Source of the DNA: Fidelibacterota bacterium
GTDB lineage: Bacteria; Fidelibacterota; Marinisomatia; Marinisomatales; SCKK01
Direction of reading: 5' to 3'
Assembly: GCA_004124475.1 (NCBI GenBank)
Contig: SCKK01000022.1
Span: forward strand, 1-54,267
DNA length: 54,267 bases
Both the position numbers and the translations under genes were made by a program. Of this stretch, positions 12,618 to 32,072 are shown piece after piece (the first letter of the stretch is position 1; each line of letters begins with the position of its first letter). Below the pieces are notes generated by a model, which was given only the letters and a program-made list of their open reading frames with translations, did no database searches and was not told the DNA's origin.

Positions 12618-13993
12618 CGATTCTCCTCAGATGTTCGTTTTTGCTCCTCGACCATACTTAGAAATTCTTCCTTTGCCTCATTTAGTGACTCAATCAAAGC
12701 CATCCTCTTCTGAATTAATCCATAAATGAGACTTCGCTTTCGATAAAATAGTGATAAGAAAATTAAATGCTGTCTATAGTTTTGGGCTCTTCTATAATAT
12801 TCTAATGCAAAATTCCCGGAGGGGACAAGTGTCAATCCATAGATTATCGATATTGATTTATCATGAAACAGGAACCAACTTAACCATATTTGAATTGTGT
12901 AAAATAATACAAATGCAGCGATGCCAACCATCAGTTTTACCGATGAAATAAACGTATCCTGATGTGTTATTCGGACCGTAAGAACTCTCGGAATTTTGTA
13001 ACCCAGAAAATTGTTTATGGCTCCCCAGAGAAAAACCGGAAAACCAATTACCAGGAAAAACCACGATTTCAGTCGTCGCCTGAATTTAATCCCCTTTCTT
13101 GCTGGTGAGAGAAAATCATCTCTTAATTGAAGACGCTGAAGTGTCTTGAGATAATTCCCCATTTCCTTCGACATGATTTTTGTTCTATCCGGATGATGAT
13201 GTTTGTACCACTCCACTGCATCAATGATTCCCTTCGTTACAAAAAATTCATCTTCCACCGATTTTGACTCCAAACCCATTTCAACTATAAGGTCTTTTTT
13301 GTAGATAGTATTAACAAAATCGACCAGGTCAGAGATTTCACTTTCCGGTAATGTTGTGGTAACTTTTTCTAACTGATATTTTATTTTTTCTGTGACTTCC
13401 TTAACCGCTTGGACAGGATTCTTCTCATAATTATCTCTGTATTCGTTAATGAAAATAGGATATCCGAAACGACAGTAGACATCACTTCTGAATTTTTGAT
13501 AATCCGAATAATTTAAACCAACGGGAACAATTTGTACATTTAATGAAAATTTATTCCTTACCTCAGCGCCAAAGGCAATACGAGCGGCTCCTGTTTTAAT
13601 TTCGTGTAATAATCTGTCTGAAATACTTATCCCTTCTGGAAAAATTAAAAATGAACCCCCTGTTTCGAGGTGTTCGTACAACCGGATAAAAATATCTTCA
13701 TTTTTTCCCATCTGATCTGGATTATCTTCCCTGCGATATATGGGGACTAACCCTATTTTTTTAAGAAACCAACTTGCAACCGGATTAGCAAATATTGTGC
13801 TTTTTGCGGTAAAGTGTATTCTCTTACCCACAGCGTATCCTGCCACCATAGCATCCATCATCGTATTAGGGTGGTTTGCAACATATATGGTCGGGCAATC
13901 AGGATGGATTCTTTCTCTATGTTCTACAATTATTTTATCAAAAAATCTTTCCAAGGAAAGGACAGCGAGAAATTTGATTAGATAGTATAACAT
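12614..13993 (-). CDS. Membrane glycerolipid acyltransferase (PlsC-like) with C-terminal membrane extension
   Basis: A 459-residue protein whose N-terminal about 220 residues form a PlsC-type acyltransferase. The catalytic motif is NHPNTMMD (an HX5D variant of the usual HX4D), followed by KSTIFANPVASWFLKKIGLVPIYR and the FPEGIS motif. After about residue 300 come three or four hydrophobic helices, not part of standard PlsC. The HX5D version and the extension resemble the glycerol-3-phosphate/DHAP acyltransferase subgroup. It likely transfers fatty acyl chains to glycerol phosphate or its lyso form at the inner membrane. It is the first gene of a two-gene operon with the carboxyltransferase. 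Confidence 0.82.
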   Translation of the reverse strand: MLYYLIKFLAVLSLERFFDKIIVEHRERIHPDCPTIYVANHPNTMMDAMVAGYAVGKRIHFTAKSTIFANPVASWFLKKIGLVPIYRREDNPDQMGKNEDIFIRLYEHLETGGSFLIFPEGISISDRLLHEIKTGAARIAFGAEVRNKFSLNVQIVPVGLNYSDYQKFRSDVYCRFGYPIFINEYRDNYEKNPVQAVKEVTEKIKYQLEKVTTTLPESEISDLVDFVNTIYKKDLIVEMGLESKSVEDEFFVTKGIIDAVEWYKHHHPDRTKIMSKEMGNYLKTLQRLQLRDDFLSPARKGIKFRRRLKSWFFLVIGFPVFLWGAINNFLGYKIPRVLTVRITHQDTFISSVKLMVGIAAFVLFYTIQIWLSWFLFHDKSISIIYGLTLVPSGNFALEYYRRAQNYRQHLIFLSLFYRKRSLIYGLIQKRMALIESLNEAKEEFLSMVEEQKRTSEENR

Positions 13994-14154
13994 TCAGTTC
14001 AATTGTATCCTGGAGGATTCTGGAAATGTTTATCGTCGATAAAATTAGTTATTGGTTAATTGGTTACTGGTTAGTTAGTTATCATAACTCACTACTCACC
14101 AGTTACCACACCACCGCTCACCAATTTCTTAGCCTCAACCTTAGCCTTTTTAAT

Positions 14155-14170
14155 TCCCGATGCATCGGGA
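14155..14170. repeat. REP-like palindrome TCCCGA-TCGGGA
   Basis: TCCCGATGCATCGGGA is a perfect 16-bp palindrome in the 190-bp spacer between the acyltransferase and thioesterase genes. It shares its ends with palindromes at 6753 and 38019. The rest of the spacer is made of short TTGGTTACTGGTTAG and ACTCACCAGTTACC units, with no gene. Confidence 0.6.
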
Positions 14171-14183
14171 CACAGCTATGTTC

Positions 14184-14597
14184 TTATTCTTCTACCCAGT
14201 GATTTTTTAAAGCGTCTAAGAATATTTTCGGGGGTCTAATAGGTTGTCCTGTTTTTTTTATGAAGGAATGAACCGTATAACCTTTTGCGATCACTGCCTC
14301 ATTTCCATCTTTAAAAACTTTGTAATCAATTCGAATCTTCGCCTTCGGGAATTGATTTATAGATGTATGTATGATGAGATTATCTTCAAAAGTTGCAGCG
14401 CCTTTATATTCACAATGAGCTTCTATTACGGGAAGGAAAACACCCATCTTTTCCAATACAGAGTAAGGGAGATTTATTGCCCTTAACATGTGTGATCTTG
14501 CGGCTTCGAAATATTCGAGGTATTTTCCATAGTACACTCTCCCCATCATATCCGTATCCGCATAGATGACACGGAGATCAAACCTATTAGAAATCAT
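14184..14597 (-). CDS. YbgC/4HBT-type acyl-CoA thioesterase
   Basis: A hot-dog-fold thioesterase of about 137 residues. The N-terminal motif VIYADTDMMGRVYYGKYLEYFEAARSHMLR contains the DTDxxG catalytic aspartate region of YbgC/4-hydroxybenzoyl-CoA thioesterase-like proteins. The rest fits the family (CEYKGAATFEDNL, AKAKIRIDY). I start it at the ATG at 14597, one base past the accA stop and with GGAAG upstream. A TTG seven codons earlier is open but lies inside accA. The coupling to accA points to a role in acyl-CoA or acyl-ACP turnover. Confidence 0.9.
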   Translation of the reverse strand: MISNRFDLRVIYADTDMMGRVYYGKYLEYFEAARSHMLRAINLPYSVLEKMGVFLPVIEAHCEYKGAATFEDNLIIHTSINQFPKAKIRIDYKVFKDGNEAVIAKGYTVHSFIKKTGQPIRPPKIFLDALKNHWVEE

Positions 14598-14598
14598 T

Positions 14599-15555
14599 TT
14601 ATTCTTCCCAGACGCCAATCTTTTCGTACTTTTTCAATCGACGATCTAGTAACTCACTGGTATTAAATGTTAAAAGTCGGTTCAATTCTTCGATAATGAT
14701 ATTTTTTAAAATCTCAGCCATTTTATCATTATTCCGATGGGCGCCCCCTAATGGTTCCTTAATAATCCTATCGCAAATCCCCATTTCATAAAGATCCTGA
14801 GCAGTAACTTTCATGGCGTCTGCTGCCAATTCAGCCTTACTTGCATCCCGCCAAAGTATGGAAGCACATCCTTCAGGACTAATAACAGAGAACCATGTAT
14901 TTTCCAGCATGATCAATTTATCTCCCACGCCGATACCCAACGCCCCACCACTGGCGCCTTCTCCAATAATAATGATCAAAATCGGCACTTTGATGGATGA
15001 CATCCTTAATAAATTTCTAGCTATAGCTTCTGCTTGTCCTCGTTCTTCAGCGCCAATACCCGGATAAGCGCCTGGAGTATCTATCAGGCAGATGATGGGT
15101 CGATTGTACTTTTCCGACAATTCCATAACTCTAAGCGCCTTCCGGTACCCTTCCGGTTTAGACATGCCAAAATTACGGTATAGATTATCTTTGGTATTCT
15201 TTCCCTTCTGCTGACCAATCCAGACTACCTGCATCCCGTCAATTGACCCAATACCGGTGACAATCGATTTGTCATCTGCAAAATTACGATCACCGTGTAA
15301 TTCAAAAAAATCAGGTGAAATTCTTGTAATATAATCAAGGGAATAAGGCCTTCTTGGATGCCTCGCCAACTGTACACGCTGCCATCGTGATAAATTACTG
15401 TAAGTTTTTTCGATCAGTTTTTTATGTTTATCTTCAAGTTTTCTGATCTCTTGTGACAGATCTGTATTACCTGCAGCGTTTATCGACTTGAGATCATCGA
15501 TTTTCCTCTCAAGTTCAATGATCGGTTTTTCAAAATTTAAGTGGAATTCAGCCAT
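14599..15555 (-). CDS. accA: Acetyl-CoA carboxylase carboxyltransferase subunit alpha
   Basis: A 318-residue AccA, the usual length. It has the coiled N-terminal region, then LARHPRRPYSLDYI, DRNFADDKSIVTGIG, and the core CLIDTPGAYPGIGAEERGQAEAIARNLLRM. The oxyanion and biotin-binding segment IGEGASGGALGIGVGD and NTWFSVISPEGCASILW follow. With AccD, not in this window, it moves the carboxyl group from biotin to acetyl-CoA to make malonyl-CoA for fatty-acid synthesis. It is the first gene of a pair with the thioesterase downstream. Confidence 0.97.
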   Translation of the reverse strand: MAEFHLNFEKPIIELERKIDDLKSINAAGNTDLSQEIRKLEDKHKKLIEKTYSNLSRWQRVQLARHPRRPYSLDYITRISPDFFELHGDRNFADDKSIVTGIGSIDGMQVVWIGQQKGKNTKDNLYRNFGMSKPEGYRKALRVMELSEKYNRPIICLIDTPGAYPGIGAEERGQAEAIARNLLRMSSIKVPILIIIIGEGASGGALGIGVGDKLIMLENTWFSVISPEGCASILWRDASKAELAADAMKVTAQDLYEMGICDRIIKEPLGGAHRNNDKMAEILKNIIIEELNRLLTFNTSELLDRRLKKYEKIGVWEE

Positions 15556-23839: not shown

Positions 23840-24712
23840 TTATTTAACTGTTTGAATAGATGGCATAAATTCTTTACTGCTCCTAAAAATTACAACAATC
23901 AAAATTGCTCCATAAATTATCTGACGCATATTTGCTGCGATAGCACTAGGCATACCGAGAAAACGCAGCGCTTCAGGAAGCAAAACAAGGAAAGCCGCTG
24001 CTATAGCAATCTTAAACATGTTACGCATTCCGCCAATGATAACAATACTTAAAATGAAAATTGATTCGTCTATTGTGAAACTTGTCGGGTCGATATAACT
24101 GATGTAGTGTGCATATAAAACGCCGGGTATAGCGGCAAACATTGCGCTTAATGTAAAGGATATTACCTTTGCTTTATAAACATTTTTGCCAAGACTTTGA
24201 GTAAATATCTCATCTTCGCTCAATGCAATTAAGATTCTTCCGAAAGGCGAACGGCTGATATTATTTAGTAAAAACCAAACAACCCCAACAAAAAACAGAC
24301 CAAGCAATAAAAAAGAAATTTTATCTTCAAACGGGAACCCGAAAATCTCTATTGATGGAATTCCCGGTATTCCGAGCGGACCTCTTGTTAGGGATTGCCA
24401 ATTATTCATTATTGAAAAAACAACTACTTGAATTCCGAGAGTGATTATAATAAAATAATCATCAACTGTTCTGAGTGAAATCGTTGAAACAATAATGGCG
24501 GTAATTCCGCAAAAAAGCATTGCCAAAGGCAGAGTGATAAGAAACGGCAACCCAAAATTTACGGTTAACAACGCGGATGTATAAGCGCCTATTCCATAAA
24601 ACCCGGCGTGAGCCAGTGAAATTAAACCGGAATAACCTGCGGCTAAACTCAAACTTTGTGAAAGTAAAATGTAGATTGAAATAAATATGAATAGATGTAA
24701 AATATATTCCAT
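23840..24712 (-). CDS. livM: Branched-chain amino acid-type ABC permease
   Basis: A 290-residue polytopic permease of the LivM type, with about eight to ten helices. Characteristic pieces are AAGYSGLISLAHAGFYGIGAYTSALL near residue 25, the conserved LTRGPLGIPGIPSI loop, and FILSIVIIGGMRN near residue 225, which contacts the ATPases. It would form the membrane channel with LivH for import of an amino acid or small amide-like substrate. It is the last gene of an eight-gene operon and starts one base after the livH stop. AT content is high, as in the whole operon. Confidence 0.93.
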   Translation of the reverse strand: MEYILHLFIFISIYILLSQSLSLAAGYSGLISLAHAGFYGIGAYTSALLTVNFGLPFLITLPLAMLFCGITAIIVSTISLRTVDDYFIIITLGIQVVVFSIMNNWQSLTRGPLGIPGIPSIEIFGFPFEDKISFLLLGLFFVGVVWFLLNNISRSPFGRILIALSEDEIFTQSLGKNVYKAKVISFTLSAMFAAIPGVLYAHYISYIDPTSFTIDESIFILSIVIIGGMRNMFKIAIAAAFLVLLPEALRFLGMPSAIAANMRQIIYGAILIVVIFRSSKEFMPSIQTVK

Positions 24713-24713
24713 C

Positions 24714-25592
24714 TCAAATTTCTACTTTTCTTAACCGCTTGCCGCTAAAACCAAGCGGTTTCCAAACTAAGAACAAAATTAAAATTACATAAGCGGTTGC
24801 GTCCATCCATTTGCTGTCAATGTAGTAGGCTGAAAGATTCTGTGCAGTGACAAGAATTAATGCGCCTGCGATCAGGCCTTTAAAGTTGCCAACTCCCCCA
24901 ATAATCATTGCGACCACACCATAAAACAGATATTTGAAACCGGTGGAAGGTGTCATATCTGTATCAAGAATAATTAAGATGCCAGCAATTGCAGCTAATG
25001 CAGAACCCACACCAAAAGACCATAAAATAACATGATTAGAGTTAATACCGAATATATTGCTCAATTCTTCGTTTGAAGAAACAGCCTGCATTTTTTTACC
25101 GAGGTTTGTGTATTTTAAAAAAAATAAACTTAAAACAATTAAAATTATACTAACAATAATTATAACAATTTGAATGTCCGTTATATACGCCCCCAAAAAA
25201 ATATTACCGACCTCAACTTCTCCCACACGTATTGTTTTTGAATCATCACCCCAAAAAATAGAAATGAGATTTTGCATAATAACATAGATGCCAAGTGAAG
25301 CAATAATCATGAAAAATGTCTCACTACTTTTTTTTCGCAGGTTTTTGAAGATAAAAAATTCAATAAACAAACCAAGAAGGCCTGTAATTATGATACTTGA
25401 AAATATTGAGATTGGAAGAGATACTCCAAATTTTCTATGAAAGAAGAAGGTAAAGTAACCACCAAGTGCAATTATTGCAGAGTGATGAATTGCGTAATAC
25501 TTACCTGTATTAAAGATTAAGAAAAATGAAATTCCCACCAGTGAAATAATAGAGAATTGTAATGCAATATTTATTATTATTTGAAATGACAT
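24714..25592 (-). CDS. livH: Branched-chain amino acid-type ABC permease
   Basis: A 292-residue LivH-like permease. It begins with several helices including GISFFLIFNTGKYYAIHHSAIIALGGYFTFFF, has the DTDMTPSTGFKYLFYGVVAMIIGGVGNFKGLIAGALIL segment typical of the family near residue 205, and ends in basic residues. It pairs with LivM. Its start follows the stop of the 220-residue membrane protein with no gap, so all three membrane genes are translated from the same message. Confidence 0.93.
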   Translation of the reverse strand: MSFQIIINIALQFSIISLVGISFFLIFNTGKYYAIHHSAIIALGGYFTFFFHRKFGVSLPISIFSSIIITGLLGLFIEFFIFKNLRKKSSETFFMIIASLGIYVIMQNLISIFWGDDSKTIRVGEVEVGNIFLGAYITDIQIVIIIVSIILIVLSLFFLKYTNLGKKMQAVSSNEELSNIFGINSNHVILWSFGVGSALAAIAGILIILDTDMTPSTGFKYLFYGVVAMIIGGVGNFKGLIAGALILVTAQNLSAYYIDSKWMDATAYVILILFLVWKPLGFSGKRLRKVEI

Positions 25593-26255
25593 TTATTCCG
25601 TTTCTTCAAAAAAAATAACTGCTTCTTTTATTTCGGTAAATAAAGGTCTATAAATAAATAGAGGAAAGATCCACGAGATTGAAGATATAATAATCATTAT
25701 TGTTGAAGTTGATACCATCCAGAGTTCAATACCTTTAATATCAACGGAACATCCTTTACAAATACCGCAACTTAAGATAAGACTTAAGATAAGCTCGATT
25801 AGGGAATAAGCGATCATAGTTAGAAATGTAATATGGATGAACCTTTTCCTAAACTTCCAATGCTTCGAAATAGACTTGGTGACCTCAAACGAATGCCTCC
25901 ACAAATAAAGACTAAAAATTAAATACAAAAACCACAAAATATTTATGATAATCAGTAAGTACAATCCTGCATTTTTTGTAAATATATAAAGCATTAAATT
26001 ACTTAAAGAGGTAAAAAGAATAAGGAATATTATCATGGATAATATTAAATCGAGAGAAAGCGAAAAGCCTACTATAGTCTCTACTTTGTTTTTGTGATCC
26101 TCATTAGTGATTTTATATGTACGATTCCTAATATTGTCGATCATTTTTATTGTAAAACCACTATAATAAGAATAAACCAGTGCTGGCAAAAATGCAGCTA
26201 CGGAAGTAGATATTGCCAATAAATTAAAAATATTCTTTATAATTTCAGAATGCAT
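25593..26255 (-). CDS. Unknown five-helix membrane protein of the Liv/prenyl operon
   Basis: A 220-residue protein of no recognised family with five likely membrane helices, at about 12-32, 62-90, 100-117, 140-165 and 182-203. A cysteine cluster CGICKGC lies between helices four and five, which could be a metal or redox site. The C-terminus is acidic (EETE). It sits between the M28-like peptidase (nine-base gap) and livH (no gap), so it is surely part of the transporter operon. It may be an accessory membrane component or act on the transported or prenylated compound. Confidence 0.75.
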   Translation of the reverse strand: MHSEIIKNIFNLLAISTSVAAFLPALVYSYYSGFTIKMIDNIRNRTYKITNEDHKNKVETIVGFSLSLDLILSMIIFLILFTSLSNLMLYIFTKNAGLYLLIIINILWFLYLIFSLYLWRHSFEVTKSISKHWKFRKRFIHITFLTMIAYSLIELILSLILSCGICKGCSVDIKGIELWMVSTSTIMIIISSISWIFPLFIYRPLFTEIKEAVIFFEETE

Positions 26256-26264
26256 TTTTGTGTT

Positions 26265-26957
26265 TTAAGTCTTGAAAATTAATTGACAAAGTTTATCATT
26301 TACGTGGTCAATATTTTTATTATTATACTTCTCTTTAAAAAATGATATTGAATTATATTTTTTAAAAGTCAAATAAATATTACTGCTATTTTTGGCATTT
26401 TTGAAATCTTCCTTAAAAGCTGAAAAATGACTTATGGATGGTATATTTTTTTTCAGAAATTCATCACTGTCACAAAGGAATAAATCATTGTCATTATTGG
26501 TGTTTTTTGTCAATTCTGAAACACAAAAGAGTTCATCACCAATGCCAAAACCATCAATATTGATATTTTTGTTTATTATGTGATCACTTAATTTTTCATT
26601 GATAAAATGTGCTGCGCCTTGTTGATATATTTCTTCCTGATCAGTGAACAGAATCACAACTGAAAAAGGTAGTTCTAAATGTCGAATTCTTTTTGATAAA
26701 TCCAATAAGGCATTTACACCACCTGCATTATCAAATAAAGATTCCCCATCATAATGCGCGGATAAAACAATTTTGTTCTTTTGATTGTCATTATTAATTT
26801 CAGCAAATATATTTCTTCCCTCACCGAAACTCGAAAAAAAATTCTGTATCTTAGGACTAAATCCATTTTTTTTTAGCTTTGCATATAAAAAAGAAACTCT
26901 CTCTTCCTTGTTTAAATTACTAAACAAGATTACATTGCTTAAATAGTTATCAGCCAT
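26265..26957 (-). CDS. M28-like metallopeptidase
   Basis: A 230-residue cytoplasmic M28-type di-zinc peptidase domain without a signal peptide. The ligands are visible in order: H68 and D70 in LSAHYDGES, D76 in FDNAGG, E108-E109 in FTDQEE, D135 in NINIDGFG, and a C-terminal His in IDHVNDKL. The spacing matches the aminopeptidase family, so it should be active on peptides or on related amide or acyl-amino-acid substrates such as glutaminyl groups. It is shorter than most (about 280-300). The start overlaps the isoprenyl synthase stop by eight bases, implying joint function. Confidence 0.82.
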   Translation of the reverse strand: MADNYLSNVILFSNLNKEERVSFLYAKLKKNGFSPKIQNFFSSFGEGRNIFAEINNDNQKNKIVLSAHYDGESLFDNAGGVNALLDLSKRIRHLELPFSVVILFTDQEEIYQQGAAHFINEKLSDHIINKNINIDGFGIGDELFCVSELTKNTNNDNDLFLCDSDEFLKKNIPSISHFSAFKEDFKNAKNSSNIYLTFKKYNSISFFKEKYNNKNIDHVNDKLCQLIFKT

Positions 26958-28023
26958 CTATTTGCTGTATGATTTGATCTATAATTACTTTAGAATTTTT
27001 CGAGGCATTAACTTTATGAAAACTTGAGATGGCTGTTTGCAAAAGTTCCTTTTTAAGCTTGTTGATGTAGCCGAGAACAAAATCGTCACTGATTAAGGAA
27101 GATAGTTTAATTTTATCATCTGCATTTAATTCTTCTTTTTTCAAAAGGTATTGAATTGTTTCTTTATCATTTTTATTACCAAACCTATATGCAATAATTA
27201 TTGGAAGTCGTTTTTTCTTGGTCTCAAAATCCCTAAACGGCTCTTTATTAATCAACTCGCTATTATTAACGTAATCCAGCAAATCGTCTCTTACTTGCAT
27301 AGCGGTCCCTAATGCTACTCCAAATTCATAAAGGGATTTTTGTTGTTCTTTTGAGCCACCGCCCAAGACACAGCCTAACTCGAAACAATAGCCGGCATCT
27401 ACTCCAGTAGAATTTTTTATCATATCAAGATAAAAGCTATCTGTAATTTCATCTATTTCCAAATTTTCAGATTTTAAATCTGCCAATTGACCTAAATAAA
27501 CCTGGTAGTGTGTATACTCGTCTTTTATATTAATATCTATAAATGACTCCGGGTCAATATTTAAATCTTTGAAGTTTGATAATAGCGCGATAGATGAAAG
27601 TGATTTAAGAATTGCTGCGAGTGATAAAGCTGGATTTTGACCATATTTAATAGGCATGCTTGCTTTACCCATTCTTTCATCATTGGCATCAAAAACATCA
27701 TCGATGGCGGTTCCCGAAGCGTATCTAAACTCAACTGATGCCATTGCAGGTAATACCTTGTAAAAGTTCCCATCAACAGATTCACACCCAATTTTAACAA
27801 AAAACGCCCTATCAAAATGTGCCTTATTGATTAGAGAATACTCAAGCTCGTCCCAGATAGACTTATCGATATATTGATGAATTAATTTCTTTAAAATGGG
27901 GGAAATTAATTGATCAGTTTCATTCAAGGATTGTTCAAGCAATTTGGATTGAAATCCAATATCATTTGATTCATCATTTAATGATTTTGAAACCTGTGAA
28001 ACTTGAGTTAATATCTGTGCCAT
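26950..28023 (-). CDS. Trans-isoprenyl diphosphate synthase-like protein
   Basis: A 357-residue all-helical class 1 isoprenoid synthase. Both aspartate-rich motifs are intact: DDVFD at 108-112 in the FARM position and DDLLD at 246-250 in the SARM position, with the GVALGTAMQVRDDLLDY context. Basic FARM-adjacent residues are weaker than in housekeeping enzymes (NDERMGKAS in place of the usual RRG). The first about 40 residues are an extra amphipathic extension. It may build an isoprenyl chain or transfer one to a peptide, as ComQ does to ComX; sequence alone does not decide. Its location inside an ABC importer operon is unusual. Confidence 0.82.
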   Translation of the reverse strand: MAQILTQVSQVSKSLNDESNDIGFQSKLLEQSLNETDQLISPILKKLIHQYIDKSIWDELEYSLINKAHFDRAFFVKIGCESVDGNFYKVLPAMASVEFRYASGTAIDDVFDANDERMGKASMPIKYGQNPALSLAAILKSLSSIALLSNFKDLNIDPESFIDINIKDEYTHYQVYLGQLADLKSENLEIDEITDSFYLDMIKNSTGVDAGYCFELGCVLGGGSKEQQKSLYEFGVALGTAMQVRDDLLDYVNNSELINKEPFRDFETKKKRLPIIIAYRFGNKNDKETIQYLLKKEELNADDKIKLSSLISDDFVLGYINKLKKELLQTAISSFHKVNASKNSKVIIDQIIQQIDG

Positions 28024-28034
28024 TTTATACCTAC

Positions 28035-29174
28035 CTAGTTAAAATTATTAATGAACCATTTAAATTTGCCATCAAGGATGATTTTAATTCCCGCAGTCTT
28101 ACTTACATCACCATTTTTATCAAAAGAAGTCTTTCCAGTAACACCTTGATAATCTATGATATTATATAAAGCAGTTTTAATCTTCTCAGAACTTTCTGAA
28201 TTATCCTTAAGTGCCATTAATGTGATACCAACAAGATCATAACCATATGCTCCCAATACATCAGGATTATTTCCATATTTATTTTTATAATCAGATACAA
28301 ATTCCTTAACAACATTATTGCTGCTATTAACTTGGAAGGAAGGATAACTGTAGAAAACACTATCAGCACCTTTGCCTGCTACTTCCACTACTTTGTGGTT
28401 TTCTACAAGGCCAACGGTAAATGTTTTTGTCGTCAATCCAAGTTCAGTTTTTTGTTTTAATAAATTTCCTAATTCTGATGTAGCAATAATGTACAGTCCA
28501 TCTGGATTTTTTTCTTTAATTGAAATCAATATTGTCTTAAAATCTTTTGTGTCCGATTCAAAACTCTTTTGAATCGCGATTTTTCCTCCATAGTTCTCAA
28601 ACTTATTCATAAATACTTTTGATATACCAAGTCCATAATCATTATTAACATATAAGAGAGCAACATCTTTTAAGCTAAGTTCATAATATGCAAATTTTGC
28701 CATTATCTCACCATCAAAATTATCCGACGGGGTAGTTCTAAAAATGTAGTCCCCTGCACTAGTGATACTCGGAGATGAAGCAGTAGGTGAGATCAAAACA
28801 ACTTTATTTTTTTCAGCAATTGGAGCCATAGATAAGACTTCTGAACTTGAAAATCCACCTAGAATAATTTTACAATTATCAATAGATGATAATTTTTGAA
28901 ATGCACTAACAGCAAGCTTAGGTTCTGCTTTGCTATCCTCATAAATTATTAGAATATCTTTATACTCAGGATTTTCTTCTCGAAAAACTTCGAGCGCAAG
29001 ATTCATACCATTTTGCAGACTTTTACCATATACCGCTACATCGCCAGAAAGTGGTAATATTGCCCCAATCTTTATAACTTCTTTCTCATTTTCACTTTGC
29101 TTAGGCATTAAAACAAAATATCCAAGAACAACAATCGCTATTAGAAATATCCCAACAATCATTCCTTTTTTCAT
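28035..29174 (-). CDS. livK: Liv-type ABC substrate-binding protein
   Basis: A 379-residue type 1 periplasmic binding protein. An N-terminal hydrophobic segment (about residues 4-23, without a lipobox cysteine) probably anchors it in the inner membrane. The core begins IKIGAILPLSGDVAVYGKSLQNGMNLAL and contains GGFSSSEVLSMAPIAEKNKVVLISPTASSPSI, the ligand-facing loops of amino-acid/amide receptors. It should deliver the substrate to LivHM. Its ATG overlaps the livF stop by four bases. The ligand is unknown. Confidence 0.92.
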   Translation of the reverse strand: MKKGMIVGIFLIAIVVLGYFVLMPKQSENEKEVIKIGAILPLSGDVAVYGKSLQNGMNLALEVFREENPEYKDILIIYEDSKAEPKLAVSAFQKLSSIDNCKIILGGFSSSEVLSMAPIAEKNKVVLISPTASSPSITSAGDYIFRTTPSDNFDGEIMAKFAYYELSLKDVALLYVNNDYGLGISKVFMNKFENYGGKIAIQKSFESDTKDFKTILISIKEKNPDGLYIIATSELGNLLKQKTELGLTTKTFTVGLVENHKVVEVAGKGADSVFYSYPSFQVNSSNNVVKEFVSDYKNKYGNNPDVLGAYGYDLVGITLMALKDNSESSEKIKTALYNIIDYQGVTGKTSFDKNGDVSKTAGIKIILDGKFKWFINNFN

Positions 29175-29869
29175 ATCATCACCTCATTAGTTTGTTCAAT
29201 TGAGATTAATTGTTTATTAAAAATGTTTCCAAGTTTTAAACCAATCACTTTATTGGCAATATCAAAAACATTTTTTACTCTGTGCTCAACAAGTAAAATA
29301 CTTATTCCAATATTCTTCAATTTTTCTAACTGTAATATAATATCTTTTAAATTTTTAGGGCTAACCCCGGCAAGAGGTTCATCGAAAATTATCAGCTCAG
29401 GTTTGTTAATTAAAGCCATGGCCATGCTTACTTGTTTGCGTTCACCACCGCTCAATCTGCTGCATTCTCGTTTTGTTAACTCTTTCAATGCAGGCAATTG
29501 CTCTAAAACCTCTCCAATTCTATTTTTTAGTTCTTTCTTTTGTATGGTCTGCATTCCGGCAATTTCTATGTTTTCAATTACGGTTAGGTTTTCAAACAGT
29601 TCATTTTGCTGCGGTATGTAAACCATTCCTTTTTTAATCAACTTCGCTGGTTTGTTATTAGTTATATTTTCTCTGTTAAATAATATTTGTGCTTCTTTAT
29701 TCCATCGTTTAATTAACCCGTAAATCACTTTCAGCAACGTGCTTTTACCGCTCCCGTTTGAACCTATTATCAGAGTTGTTTCTCCTTTCTGCATTTTAAA
29801 TGATACGTCAAAAAGTACTTGTTTTTTGCCGTAGCCGGCGCTTAAATGTTCAACACTTAATATATTCAC
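29171..29869 (-). CDS. livF: ABC transporter ATPase
   Basis: A 232-residue ATPase of the LivF type. Walker A is IGSNGSGKSTLL (about residues 33-44), the signature is LSGGERKQVSMAMAL, Walker B is LIIFDEPLAGVSP, and the switch histidine is in VEHRVKN. It begins with GTG overlapping the livG stop (GTGA) and ends overlapping the binding-protein start (ATGA). It works as a heterodimer with LivG to power import. Confidence 0.95.
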   Translation of the reverse strand: MNILSVEHLSAGYGKKQVLFDVSFKMQKGETTLIIGSNGSGKSTLLKVIYGLIKRWNKEAQILFNRENITNNKPAKLIKKGMVYIPQQNELFENLTVIENIEIAGMQTIQKKELKNRIGEVLEQLPALKELTKRECSRLSGGERKQVSMAMALINKPELIIFDEPLAGVSPKNLKDIILQLEKLKNIGISILLVEHRVKNVFDIANKVIGLKLGNIFNKQLISIEQTNEVMI

Positions 29870-30609
29870 AAGTAAGCTTGCTGTACTTTTGAATCATTTT
29901 TCAAATTTTTATAACTGTCAAAATTGGTAATAGTCCCGTTTGAAAGAAAGAATAATTTATCACTAATCTCACTTATAAAATCAGCATTATGTTCAATAAG
30001 CAAGATGGTTTTCCCATTGGCTTTAATATCCTTCAGCAATATAGCTATCTTATTCTGGTATTCTGGGTTTATACCGGCAACTGGTTCATCAAATAAAAAA
30101 AGTTCGGCGTCATTAACAAGACAGCATCCGAGAGTTAATAATTTCTGCTGTCCGTAAGATATCTCTCCTGCTTTACTTTCGGCAACATCACTTAGAAATA
30201 TTTGTTCAATAATTTTTTCAGCTCTTTCATCGAAAGAATTGTAATATTCTTTTAACATAATTCTGGGAAGCATAGCATTAAAAATATTTTCTCCTTTATT
30301 ACCTTTGAAAGATAGCAGAATATTTTCTTTAACAGTTAATCCTTCAATCAATCGCAGATTTTGAAATGTGCGGGTAATTCCAAGATGATTAATATTTATC
30401 GGAGAGTTATTTGTAATGTTTTTTTCCTTGAAATAAATCGATCCGTTATCAGCGCTAAGGAAACCGGTTAAAATATTAAACAAAGTTGTCTTGCCTGACC
30501 CGTTAGCTCCCATTAGAGAATAGATCTGTTTTGGTTCGAGTGCAAGGTTCAAACCTGATAATATTTTCCTATTTCCAAAAGATTTTGATATGCTTTTGAT
30601 TTTTAACAC
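29866..30609 (-). CDS. livG: ABC transporter ATPase
   Basis: A 247-residue LivG-type ATPase. Walker A is MGANGSGKTTLFNIL, the signature is the variant EISYGQQKLLTLG, Walker B is LFLFDEPVAGINPE, and the switch is IEHNADF. ITRTFQNLRLIEGLTVKENILL is the family Q-loop region. It is the first gene of the eight-gene operon, starting with GTG and without a clear Shine-Dalgarno. A TATAAT box lies about 25-35 bp upstream on the minus strand, but no good -35 is seen. The operon begins about 125 bp from the attC-like site at 30733-30855. Confidence 0.95.
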   Translation of the reverse strand: MLKIKSISKSFGNRKILSGLNLALEPKQIYSLMGANGSGKTTLFNILTGFLSADNGSIYFKEKNITNNSPININHLGITRTFQNLRLIEGLTVKENILLSFKGNKGENIFNAMLPRIMLKEYYNSFDERAEKIIEQIFLSDVAESKAGEISYGQQKLLTLGCCLVNDAELFLFDEPVAGINPEYQNKIAILLKDIKANGKTILLIEHNADFISEISDKLFFLSNGTITNFDSYKNLKNDSKVQQAYL

Positions 30610-30732
30610 GATAATTAATATGATGATAATAAATTTTATTATAATAAGATTACAAATTAAGTATATTGAAGTATTTTAATATCAAATCGTTTGCTCTAAT
30701 ATCATTATTCAATAATTGGACTTATTGTTATT

Positions 30733-30855
30733 AACGGTCTGGCTATGCCCAGTAAGGGATTTTATAACACTACCGTTTCAATTTATTATTAATTTTTGTT
30801 ACTTAAATTTACTTTCATTTTAGCACTAAAACCCTTATTGGGTATAGCCTTTGTT
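30733..30855. other. attC-like palindrome between Liv operon and unknown gene pair
   Basis: A 123-bp palindrome with AAC at its left end and GTT at its right. Arms of 24 and 23 bases (30741-30764 and 30827-30849) pair with two mismatches and one extra unpaired A, the kind of bulge attC sites carry. The outer cores do not fit RYYYAAC/GTTRRRY fully (TATTAAC, GTTGTAA). Similar AACGGTCTGGCTATGC...GGGATTTT elements are, to my memory, frequent between small unknown genes in Bacteroidota. It lies 14 bp beyond the stop of the 30869-31552 gene, as expected for that gene's cassette end. Confidence 0.55.
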
Positions 30856-30868
30856 GTAAATAGTTCGT

Positions 30869-31552
30869 TCATTTTGCTTTCTCTTGTGGCTTTTCTTGAA
30901 TTGTTTTAGGCAGCTTGGTTATTTTAAGTCTAATATCTTGCATTACTGTTTGAAATACGCCTCTATCATCGGCTTTACCAAGATTAGTAATTAGTAATTC
31001 AAGGTCGCGATTTATGTTTATTTTTAAGTCGTCAATTTCTTCTTTAGAGAGGTGCGGTAAACAGTCTGACAGAATCAGATTTAAAGCTATTTGAAGATTT
31101 TGATAGTCATCCGATTCTATAAAACTAAAGGAAGCGGAAACTATGTCTCCTAATGCAAGTTGGTGATAGCTTTTCTCGAGATTTAGCTTTCCTTGGATAA
31201 GAAATGTCTTAGCATTGGCAGAAGCATTTAGTTTTTTGATTTCAGTCTCGTATTTCCCAAATTGAGTTTTGATCTCTACTGAAACAATTTCAATAATTTC
31301 AGACTTGATTTTCTTAACTTGTTCAGAAATATCTTTCTTCAAAAGTTCTTCGCTTAACTTTAGTGTTCTTCGCTGATACCATTGAACAATTAATGGAACC
31401 GCCACACCCATAATAACGAATGCTACCGAACCAATTATTATTAATTTGTCCCAAGCACTATTATAAAAGGCGTCAACTTTTTGAATTATGTCAATGTAAT
31501 CTGCTAAAGTCTGTTGATATATTGTTTTGACGGTATCTAAAGTTTCTTTCAT
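30869..31552 (-). CDS. Membrane-anchored coiled-coil protein of unknown function
   Basis: A 227-residue protein of no recognised family. A single membrane helix (about residues 36-58, LIIIGSVAFVIMGVAVPLIV) is followed by a charged coiled coil (about 65-115) and a helical C-terminal domain. The C-terminus is basic (KPQEKAK). It follows the 110-residue gene upstream by 13 bases, so the two form a pair. The attC-like palindrome 14 bp downstream suggests both belong to one integron-type cassette. AT-rich composition fits this. Confidence 0.6.
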   Translation of the reverse strand: MKETLDTVKTIYQQTLADYIDIIQKVDAFYNSAWDKLIIIGSVAFVIMGVAVPLIVQWYQRRTLKLSEELLKKDISEQVKKIKSEIIEIVSVEIKTQFGKYETEIKKLNASANAKTFLIQGKLNLEKSYHQLALGDIVSASFSFIESDDYQNLQIALNLILSDCLPHLSKEEIDDLKININRDLELLITNLGKADDRGVFQTVMQDIRLKITKLPKTIQEKPQEKAK

Positions 31553-31565
31553 AATTAGAGCCTTT

Positions 31566-31898
31566 TTAGAAATAATCTGGTTCTGTTTTCACAGCAGTTG
31601 CTTGGACTTGATTAAAGTCGCTGTCAAAGTGATTCAATAACATTTCTATGAATCGCCCATGATATACGCCATATAAATATTTAGTCAGTTCTGTGTCTTT
31701 TTGTCCCAGTATGCCAAACCTCAGTTCATTTGAATAGACTTTTGGTCTTAACCAAGCTTTATTTTTCCATTGTTCTGGCTTGTGTGTGAAATCTCCGTCA
31801 CTATCGTACGACCAAGTATCAATAGATTTGTCGTTTATAGCTTTTTTTATTTTACTCAACAAACCACTTGGGTTTTGAGTTTTTACTATGATTGCCAT
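31566..31898 (-). CDS. Small hypothetical protein, cassette-associated
   Basis: A 110-residue soluble protein I cannot assign. It has a conserved-looking core (IDTWSYDSDGDFTHKPEQWKNKAWLRP and LRFGILGQKDTELTKYLYGVYHGRFIEMLLNHFD) resembling small unknown proteins often found in mobile cassettes. It lies 13 bp upstream of the membrane-anchored coiled-coil gene on the same strand. The two may act together, for example as a cytosolic effector and a membrane partner, which is a guess. Upstream to 32072 there is only a short palindrome (CCGCCAAATTGGTGG). Confidence 0.55.
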   Translation of the reverse strand: MAIIVKTQNPSGLLSKIKKAINDKSIDTWSYDSDGDFTHKPEQWKNKAWLRPKVYSNELRFGILGQKDTELTKYLYGVYHGRFIEMLLNHFDSDFNQVQATAVKTEPDYF

Positions 31899-32072
31899 AT
31901 TATAGGATATATTGATTTTTCATTATTTATATTCTCTTTTCGTATTAGTTAAAACATTTGTATATATTCATTGTTCTTACACCGCCAAATTGGTGGAATA
32001 TAAACAATTGCTTATATCTTTCATTTACAATTATGACACTTCTATTCAAAAAAATCATCTACAGAATTCCGT

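Follow-up and report, generated by a model that had tools for sequence, protein, structure and literature searches.

Liv-type importers are normally nutritional, and enzymes encoded next to importers often process the imported molecule. In the Lsr operon for AI-2 uptake, an importer and signal-processing enzymes are found together. In the ComQXPA system, a polymorphic synthase and polymorphic recognition parts lie next to conserved parts (PMC4008528). Ord1 is an enzyme of synthase fold that farnesylates free tryptophan (PMC13290415), which indicates that synthase-fold chemistry on a free amino acid exists. Here we describe a Liv-type operon that carries a trans-isoprenyl-diphosphate-synthase-like protein and an M28-type metallopeptidase. 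It lies in a 54,267 nt stretch of DNA from a Fidelibacterota bacterium of the order Marinisomatales (assembly GCA_004124475.1, contig SCKK01000022.1, positions 1 to 54,267), which is referred to as the window in its full length. The importer belongs to a family in which the substrate-binding protein (SBP) is replaced as a unit with at least one enzyme and, in most cases, a membrane protein.

The operon consists of eight open reading frames (ORFs), all on the minus strand. An earlier note, made from the sequence of the window, had proposed an eight-gene operon, and the ORF check confirmed its positions, order, overlaps, and gaps. Neighboring genes overlap by 4, 4, and 8 nt or are separated by 11, 9, 0, and 1 nt. 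The Liv, binding-protein, synthase, and M28 families named in the same note were recovered by Pfam, and the five-helix membrane protein matched no family. The two permeases, two ATPases, and binding protein are all of the families that define a Liv (HAAT) importer. The livG product matched the NCBIfam UrtD/LivG family under the cut-off; a Urt urea importer was rejected because the NCBIfam UrtA-E models were all below their curated cut-offs. The GC content of the block is 0.30-0.33, as compared with 0.37-0.45 for adjacent sequence windows. The features are given below with reference to L063, a related operon, L070, the closest relative carrying a complete operon, and G001, a genome of the same genus.

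29866-30609, minus strand: livG-type ATPase, conserved frame gene (Pfam ABC_tran, 4.4e-28; 77% identity to L070)
29171-29869, minus strand: livF-type ATPase, conserved frame gene (Pfam ABC_tran, 1.8e-32; 79% identity to L070)
28035-29174, minus strand: Liv-type SBP, in the exchangeable block (Peripla_BP_6, 4e-47)
26950-28023, minus strand: trans-isoprenyl-diphosphate-synthase-like protein (Pfam polyprenyl_synt, 9e-28)
27688-27702, minus strand: first aspartate-rich motif DDVFD, synthase residues 108-112 (sequence and alignments)
27274-27288, minus strand: second aspartate-rich motif DDLLD, synthase residues 246-250 (sequence and alignments)
26265-26957, minus strand: M28-type metallopeptidase, short and cytoplasmic (Pfam Peptidase_M28, 5e-16)
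25593-26255, minus strand: five-helix membrane protein, cargo (no Pfam family)
24714-25592, minus strand: livH-type permease (BPD_transp_2, 3.8e-34; 61% identity to L063)
23840-24712, minus strand: livM-type permease, most conserved frame gene (Pfam BPD_transp_2, 3.3e-43)
25311-28735, minus strand: exchangeable cassette, the block without DNA match to L070 (blastn, converted to window coordinates)
23843-32065: stretch missing at the same place in G001 (the operon and two upstream ORFs)

The window SBP led to L063, which is located in a genome of another family of the same order (G013). In L063, livG, livF, and the SBP gene are followed by a methyltransferase gene and others, but not by a synthase or peptidase gene, and then by livH and livM. 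Identity between L063 and the window is 72% for LivM, 61% for LivH, and 36% for the SBP. A scan of 84,980 species genomes with the LivM pair of the window and L063 yielded 38 loci whose LivM is 64-92% identical, and the frame order livG-livF-variable block-livH-livM was constant among them. The window LivM is 92% identical to that of L069 and 88% to that of L070. The loci are labeled Bacteroidetes, Chlorobi, Ignavibacteria, Calditrichota, Planctomycetes, and others, and some carriers are cultured isolates, e.g., Porphyromonas loveana. A more distant group with the order SBP-cargo-livH-livM-livG-livF has the same variable-block habit. The importer family is rare and patchy in its occurrence; at the level of E < 1e-140 for LivM, it occurred in 6 of the 395 genomes of one phylum sample and in 3 of the 294 of another, the centers included. 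Two genomes carry two copies of the frame with different cassettes (L093 and L104 in G254; L077 and L099 in G250).

Among 29 complete operons, the mean pairwise identity was 51% for livG, 48% for livF, 30% for the SBP, 53% for livH, and 68% for livM. Where LivM was >76% identical, SBP identity was 22-41% for pairs with different cargo (57 pairs) and 68-83% for pairs with the same cargo (3 pairs). Same-cargo pairs showed an SBP excess of 12.8 points, a value that none of 5000 label permutations attained, and LivM showed no excess. SBP identity thus tracks the cargo class, not LivM. As a control, ordinary Liv operons of the same scan with LivM >76% identical had SBPs that were 78-93% identical (n = 5); in such operons, a constant permease keeps its SBP.

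Comparison at the DNA level revealed mosaics. L093 and L104 share 90% identity over livG and livF, followed by ~3.6 kb without match, and an 86% match resumes ~200 nt inside livH and covers the remainder of livH and all of livM. The window and L070 match over livG, livF, and ~435 nt of the SBP gene, and the match resumes ~280 nt inside livH. The borders of the mosaics are located in the 3' part of livF or early in the SBP gene on one side and 200-280 nt into livH on the other, and the first ~90 livH codons belong to the exchangeable block. The identity pattern and the DNA mosaics together show that the block moves as a unit.

The G001 genome, which has ~95% DNA identity, matches the window up to ~23842 and again from ~32066, and the left break is no more than a few bases away from the stop codon of livM. 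Since the flanks are on separate contigs in G001, one running into transposase-like sequence and the other towards selD, an intact empty site was not seen. The host genome of 3.15 Mb contains two more synthase homologues elsewhere. A search of 60 related genomes gave no synthase ortholog, and the M28 peptidase had none in the other 244 of the 245 genomes of the phylum. Single-sequence searches with the synthase in GTDB contigs and IMG/VR gave no match, and neither did a single-sequence search of IMG/VR with the five-helix protein. Just upstream of livG, at 30700-30870, there is an imperfect palindrome GGCTATACCCAATAAGGG...CCCTTACTGGGCATAGCC that resembles an integron attC-type site, and two small ORFs upstream of it (30869-31552 and 31566-31898) may be gene cassettes.

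The variable block contains the SBP gene and unrelated cargo genes between livF and livH. Pfam assigned the cargo to radical SAM enzymes (the commonest), B12-binding radical SAM enzymes, methyltransferases including EgtD-like ones, and aminotransferases, as well as to class II tRNA-synthetase-like proteins, RelA/SpoT (L086, L105), GGDEF (L092), TIR (L093), calcineurin-type phosphoesterase (L085, L139), glyoxalase, and polyprenyl synthetase. Many cargo proteins match no family. In the RelA, GGDEF, and phosphoesterase cargo and in most radical SAM proteins, the active-site motifs appear intact. Membrane proteins are also encoded in many operons, and two helices at the N-terminus are frequent among them. 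L073:7075-7992 and L093:6642-8000 share one unassigned domain beside the same radical SAM enzyme, and this domain is fused with a membrane helix in the former and with TIR in the latter, which is an effector swap. An AlphaFold model of the L093 TIR protein had a pLDDT of 31. Apart from this pair, profile comparison of the membrane cargo supported a shared domain for L101/L193 only, and a single common domain across all membrane cargo was therefore rejected.

Several further features were observed in the related operons. About 400 residues without Pfam match precede the RelA/SpoT and GGDEF domains in L086, L105, and L092. The class II tRNA-synthetase-like cargo is of two kinds (L101:7016-8095; L193:7912-8967; L091:5925-6830). 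An AbiEi-like antitoxin gene followed by a second gene lies inside the operon between cargo and livH at L184:6976-8609 and L187:8799-10417, and these are probable toxin-antitoxin pairs. Extra genes that by eye are GxxExxY-like and DUF1016-like recur (L063:7265-7642 and 13736-14860; L070:8924-9970; L095:9427-9834), and such inserts separate livG from livF or livH from livM in unrelated operons. At L091:4150-5196, a transposase with an integrase core (rve) interrupts the SBP gene.

Synthase-like cargo was found in seven Liv operons (the window, L075, L102, L108, L113, L124, and L194), which excludes a chance association. In human FPPS, the diphosphate of isopentenyl diphosphate (IPP) is held by Lys57, Arg60, Gln96, and Arg113 (PMC4106277). 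Alignment revealed that the equivalents of Lys57 and Arg113 were lost in all seven proteins, and that of Arg60 was kept in some of them, the window protein included. In the latter, GKRxRP is changed to AHFDRA with Arg60 kept, the Gln96/His position is Tyr, and RRG is RMG. The aspartate-rich motifs were both kept in five of the seven and lost in L075 and L102. An AlphaFold model made from the seven sequences (pLDDT 85, pTM 0.87) was assigned to the trans-isoprenyl diphosphate synthase (trans-IDS) fold by Foldseek, and the Pfam and PDB matches of the window protein were likewise trans-IDS. The window protein thus has the fold, the Pfam match, and the aspartate-rich motifs of a canonical trans-IDS but not its IPP diphosphate site. 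From the alignment, chain elongation with IPP is unlikely. Since the IPP site is altered while the donor motifs are kept, the synthase-like protein probably prenylates a non-IPP acceptor, and the L075 and L102 proteins may be binding-only.

The second motif of ComQ must be ND or GD (PMC5331326). The window protein has the first aspartate-rich motif, as ComQ does, and DDLLD as the second. No ComX-like precursor (52-73 residues with Trp near the C-terminus) was found upstream of livG, where the minus-strand ORFs encode 20 and 27 amino acids and are Trp-free. A ComX family search of the host genome gave no match, and the control genomes also gave none. Because the DDLLD motif is intact and there is no ComX-like ORF upstream, membership of the window synthase in ComQ was rejected. 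Ord1 was among the matches of the window synthase, at structural rank 39 and profile rank 30. Like Ord1 and related prenyltransferases, the window synthase has a Gln three positions ahead of the second motif; canonical synthases have it too, so that it does not decide whether the acceptor is of the Ord1 type.

The window SBP has an N-terminal hydrophobic anchor and no lipobox Cys, and its closest solved chain is 3td9. Of the LivJ pocket residues (S79, T102, Y150, and E226), the Ser, Ser/Thr, and Tyr positions are kept, and Glu226 is not. This comparison favors a carboxylate without the usual free amine as the ligand. The M28 protein scored 59.4 bits in Pfam against a cut-off of 21.3, and the metal ligands H68, D76, E108/E109, D135, and H218 are all present in its sequence. 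Among the operons examined, M28 peptidase cargo was seen in the window operon only, and a fixed module of synthase and M28 peptidase was rejected on this ground. The five-helix protein gave no match in family searches. It is 23% identical (E 0.006) to L113:1828-2463, which also lies beside a synthase; the profile comparison gave no support, and the pairwise match is at most suggestive of a relationship.

The earlier note had read the operon as a system that takes up, trims, or makes a prenylated amino acid or peptide, with ComQ-ComX as the nearest idea, and this reading was partly supported. Its observation that both aspartate-rich motifs and all M28 metal ligands are intact was confirmed in the sequence. 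The functional link between importer and synthase gained support from the recurrence in seven Liv operons and from the SBP traveling with the cargo, whereas the M28 gene was seen in this one operon, and a general role of the peptidase found no support. Regarding the prenyl chemistry, transfer to a non-IPP acceptor is favored by the loss of the IPP site, but membership in ComQ-ComX did not hold. Import of a free amino acid is doubtful, since the SBP keeps the carboxylate-binding Ser/Thr but not the amine-binding Glu. The altered IPP site and the family with exchangeable cargo lay beyond the view of the note.

In our leading reading, which falls a little short of even confidence, the operon couples uptake to the recognition and modification of a molecule, as a module whose specificity can be exchanged. 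A constant Liv-type frame (LivG, LivF, most of LivH, and LivM) carries a replaceable block, and the SBP and the enzyme would act on the same molecule and hence have to move together. In the window, the SBP would catch a carboxylate-bearing molecule, which the importer would take inside. The synthase-like protein, with its donor-diphosphate and metal site kept and its IPP site lost, would prenylate the imported molecule or one derived from it, the M28 enzyme would cut an amide or peptide bond in the imported molecule, and the five-helix protein would handle or sense the product at the membrane. Such a module most likely serves private chemical recognition between cells, as a signal or in conflict, because the specificity is swapped and the machinery is kept. 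More tentatively, these operons may represent a new class of bacterial private recognition, in which cassettes on a constant importer frame replace the SBP, the enzyme, and the membrane partner jointly, comparable to interchangeable pherotypes or sets of effectors, and the window version may recognize or make a prenylated small molecule.

Several points weigh against the module. L075 and L102 have lost the aspartate-rich motifs, so that not every member would transfer prenyl groups, and sensing is a possible role. M28 cargo turned up in a single operon. Neither an exporter nor a precursor peptide is encoded in the operon, although a signal would depend on these. Substrate modification is also a poor fit for cargo such as TIR, RelA/SpoT, and GGDEF. 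The loss of the IPP site is deduced from an alignment, and the ligand, activity, and product are all putative.

Among the alternatives, an immune or conflict system survives best, although we consider it unlikely. Importer and SBP would serve as the sensor, and the cassette would provide an enzyme making or altering a messenger together with an effector (membrane protein, TIR, RelA/SpoT, phosphoesterase, or peptidase). The intact-looking motifs of the TIR, RelA/SpoT, GGDEF, and calcineurin-type cargo, the shared domain of L073 and L093 that is joined to a membrane helix or to TIR beside the same radical SAM enzyme, the rare and patchy occurrence, and the AbiEi-like genes inside two related operons are consistent with this explanation. 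However, PADLOC gave no match for the window's own cargo, and the flanks showed no clear PADLOC excess over random regions of like genomes (118 flank genes versus 93 control genes). In many cassettes, biosynthetic enzymes such as synthase, aminotransferase, and EgtD-like proteins prevail. We also know of no precedent for an importer that acts as a sensor, which counts against a conflict system.

Somewhat less probable is scavenging, in which each cassette would import and process a different uncommon nutrient or natural product as food or cofactor. The usual nutritional role of Liv importers and the frequent processing of imported molecules by adjoining enzymes speak for it, as do the carboxylate-binding Ser/Thr positions of the SBP. 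On the other hand, the degenerate prenyl transferase and the TIR, GGDEF, and RelA/SpoT cargo are not catabolic, and swapping of SBPs on a constant permease is absent from ordinary Liv operons.

We give still less weight to a sensor or pseudoenzyme role of the synthase-like protein, in which it would bind prenyl diphosphate or a comparable ligand and control either the importer or the membrane partner. The IPP site is lost in 7/7, and the L075 and L102 proteins keep the same fold and operon place without both aspartate-rich motifs, but 5/7 retain these motifs, which a pure sensor does not need. An ordinary isoprenyl diphosphate synthase and a peptidase placed in a Liv operon by chance are very improbable, because, although Pfam, PDB, and Foldseek all indicate trans-IDS, the type recurs in seven Liv operons of several phyla with the IPP site altered in all, and the host genome has its two further synthase homologues elsewhere.

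An importer family that swaps receptor and enzyme as a unit offers matched receptor-enzyme pairs as a natural series. Should its ligands prove to be signals or toxins, bacteria of several phyla would have a communication or conflict system of a new kind; otherwise, the family still points to many uncharacterized small molecules. The family also adds a group of prenyl-synthase-like proteins without the IPP site and outside the ComQ rule, and the SBP provides a direct handle to fish out their acceptor.

Like Liv/HAAT importers (LivKHMGF), the window operon has two BPD_transp_2 permeases, two ATPases, and a Peripla_BP_6 binding protein. It differs in that its family swaps the SBP and cargo as a block, with the cargo between the SBP gene and livH, and in that its SBP has no equivalent of LivJ Glu226. 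With CBASS-like systems, the family shares a constant core, variable enzyme and membrane cargo, and a scattered distribution, although its core is a nutrient-type importer and its flanks gave no clear excess of defense genes over random regions. The Lsr operon likewise combines importer and processing enzymes, but its importer is of the sugar type, its cargo is fixed, and its enzymes are others. The likeness to ComQXPA lies in a synthase-fold protein with the first aspartate-rich motif and in polymorphic parts beside conserved ones; in the window, however, the second motif is DDLLD, there is no ComX-like ORF, and an importer takes the place of the histidine kinase and response regulator. As in the prenyltransferases Ord1, PalQ, and ComQ, a trans-IDS fold appears to be turned to a non-IPP acceptor, but the window synthase is not specially close to them, sits in an importer operon, and has a putative acceptor. 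A literature search found no description of Liv operons or conflict systems like these, most subscription papers being outside its coverage. The component proteins are of known kinds, and it is the exchangeable receptor-enzyme block in a Liv importer that is apparently new at the system level.

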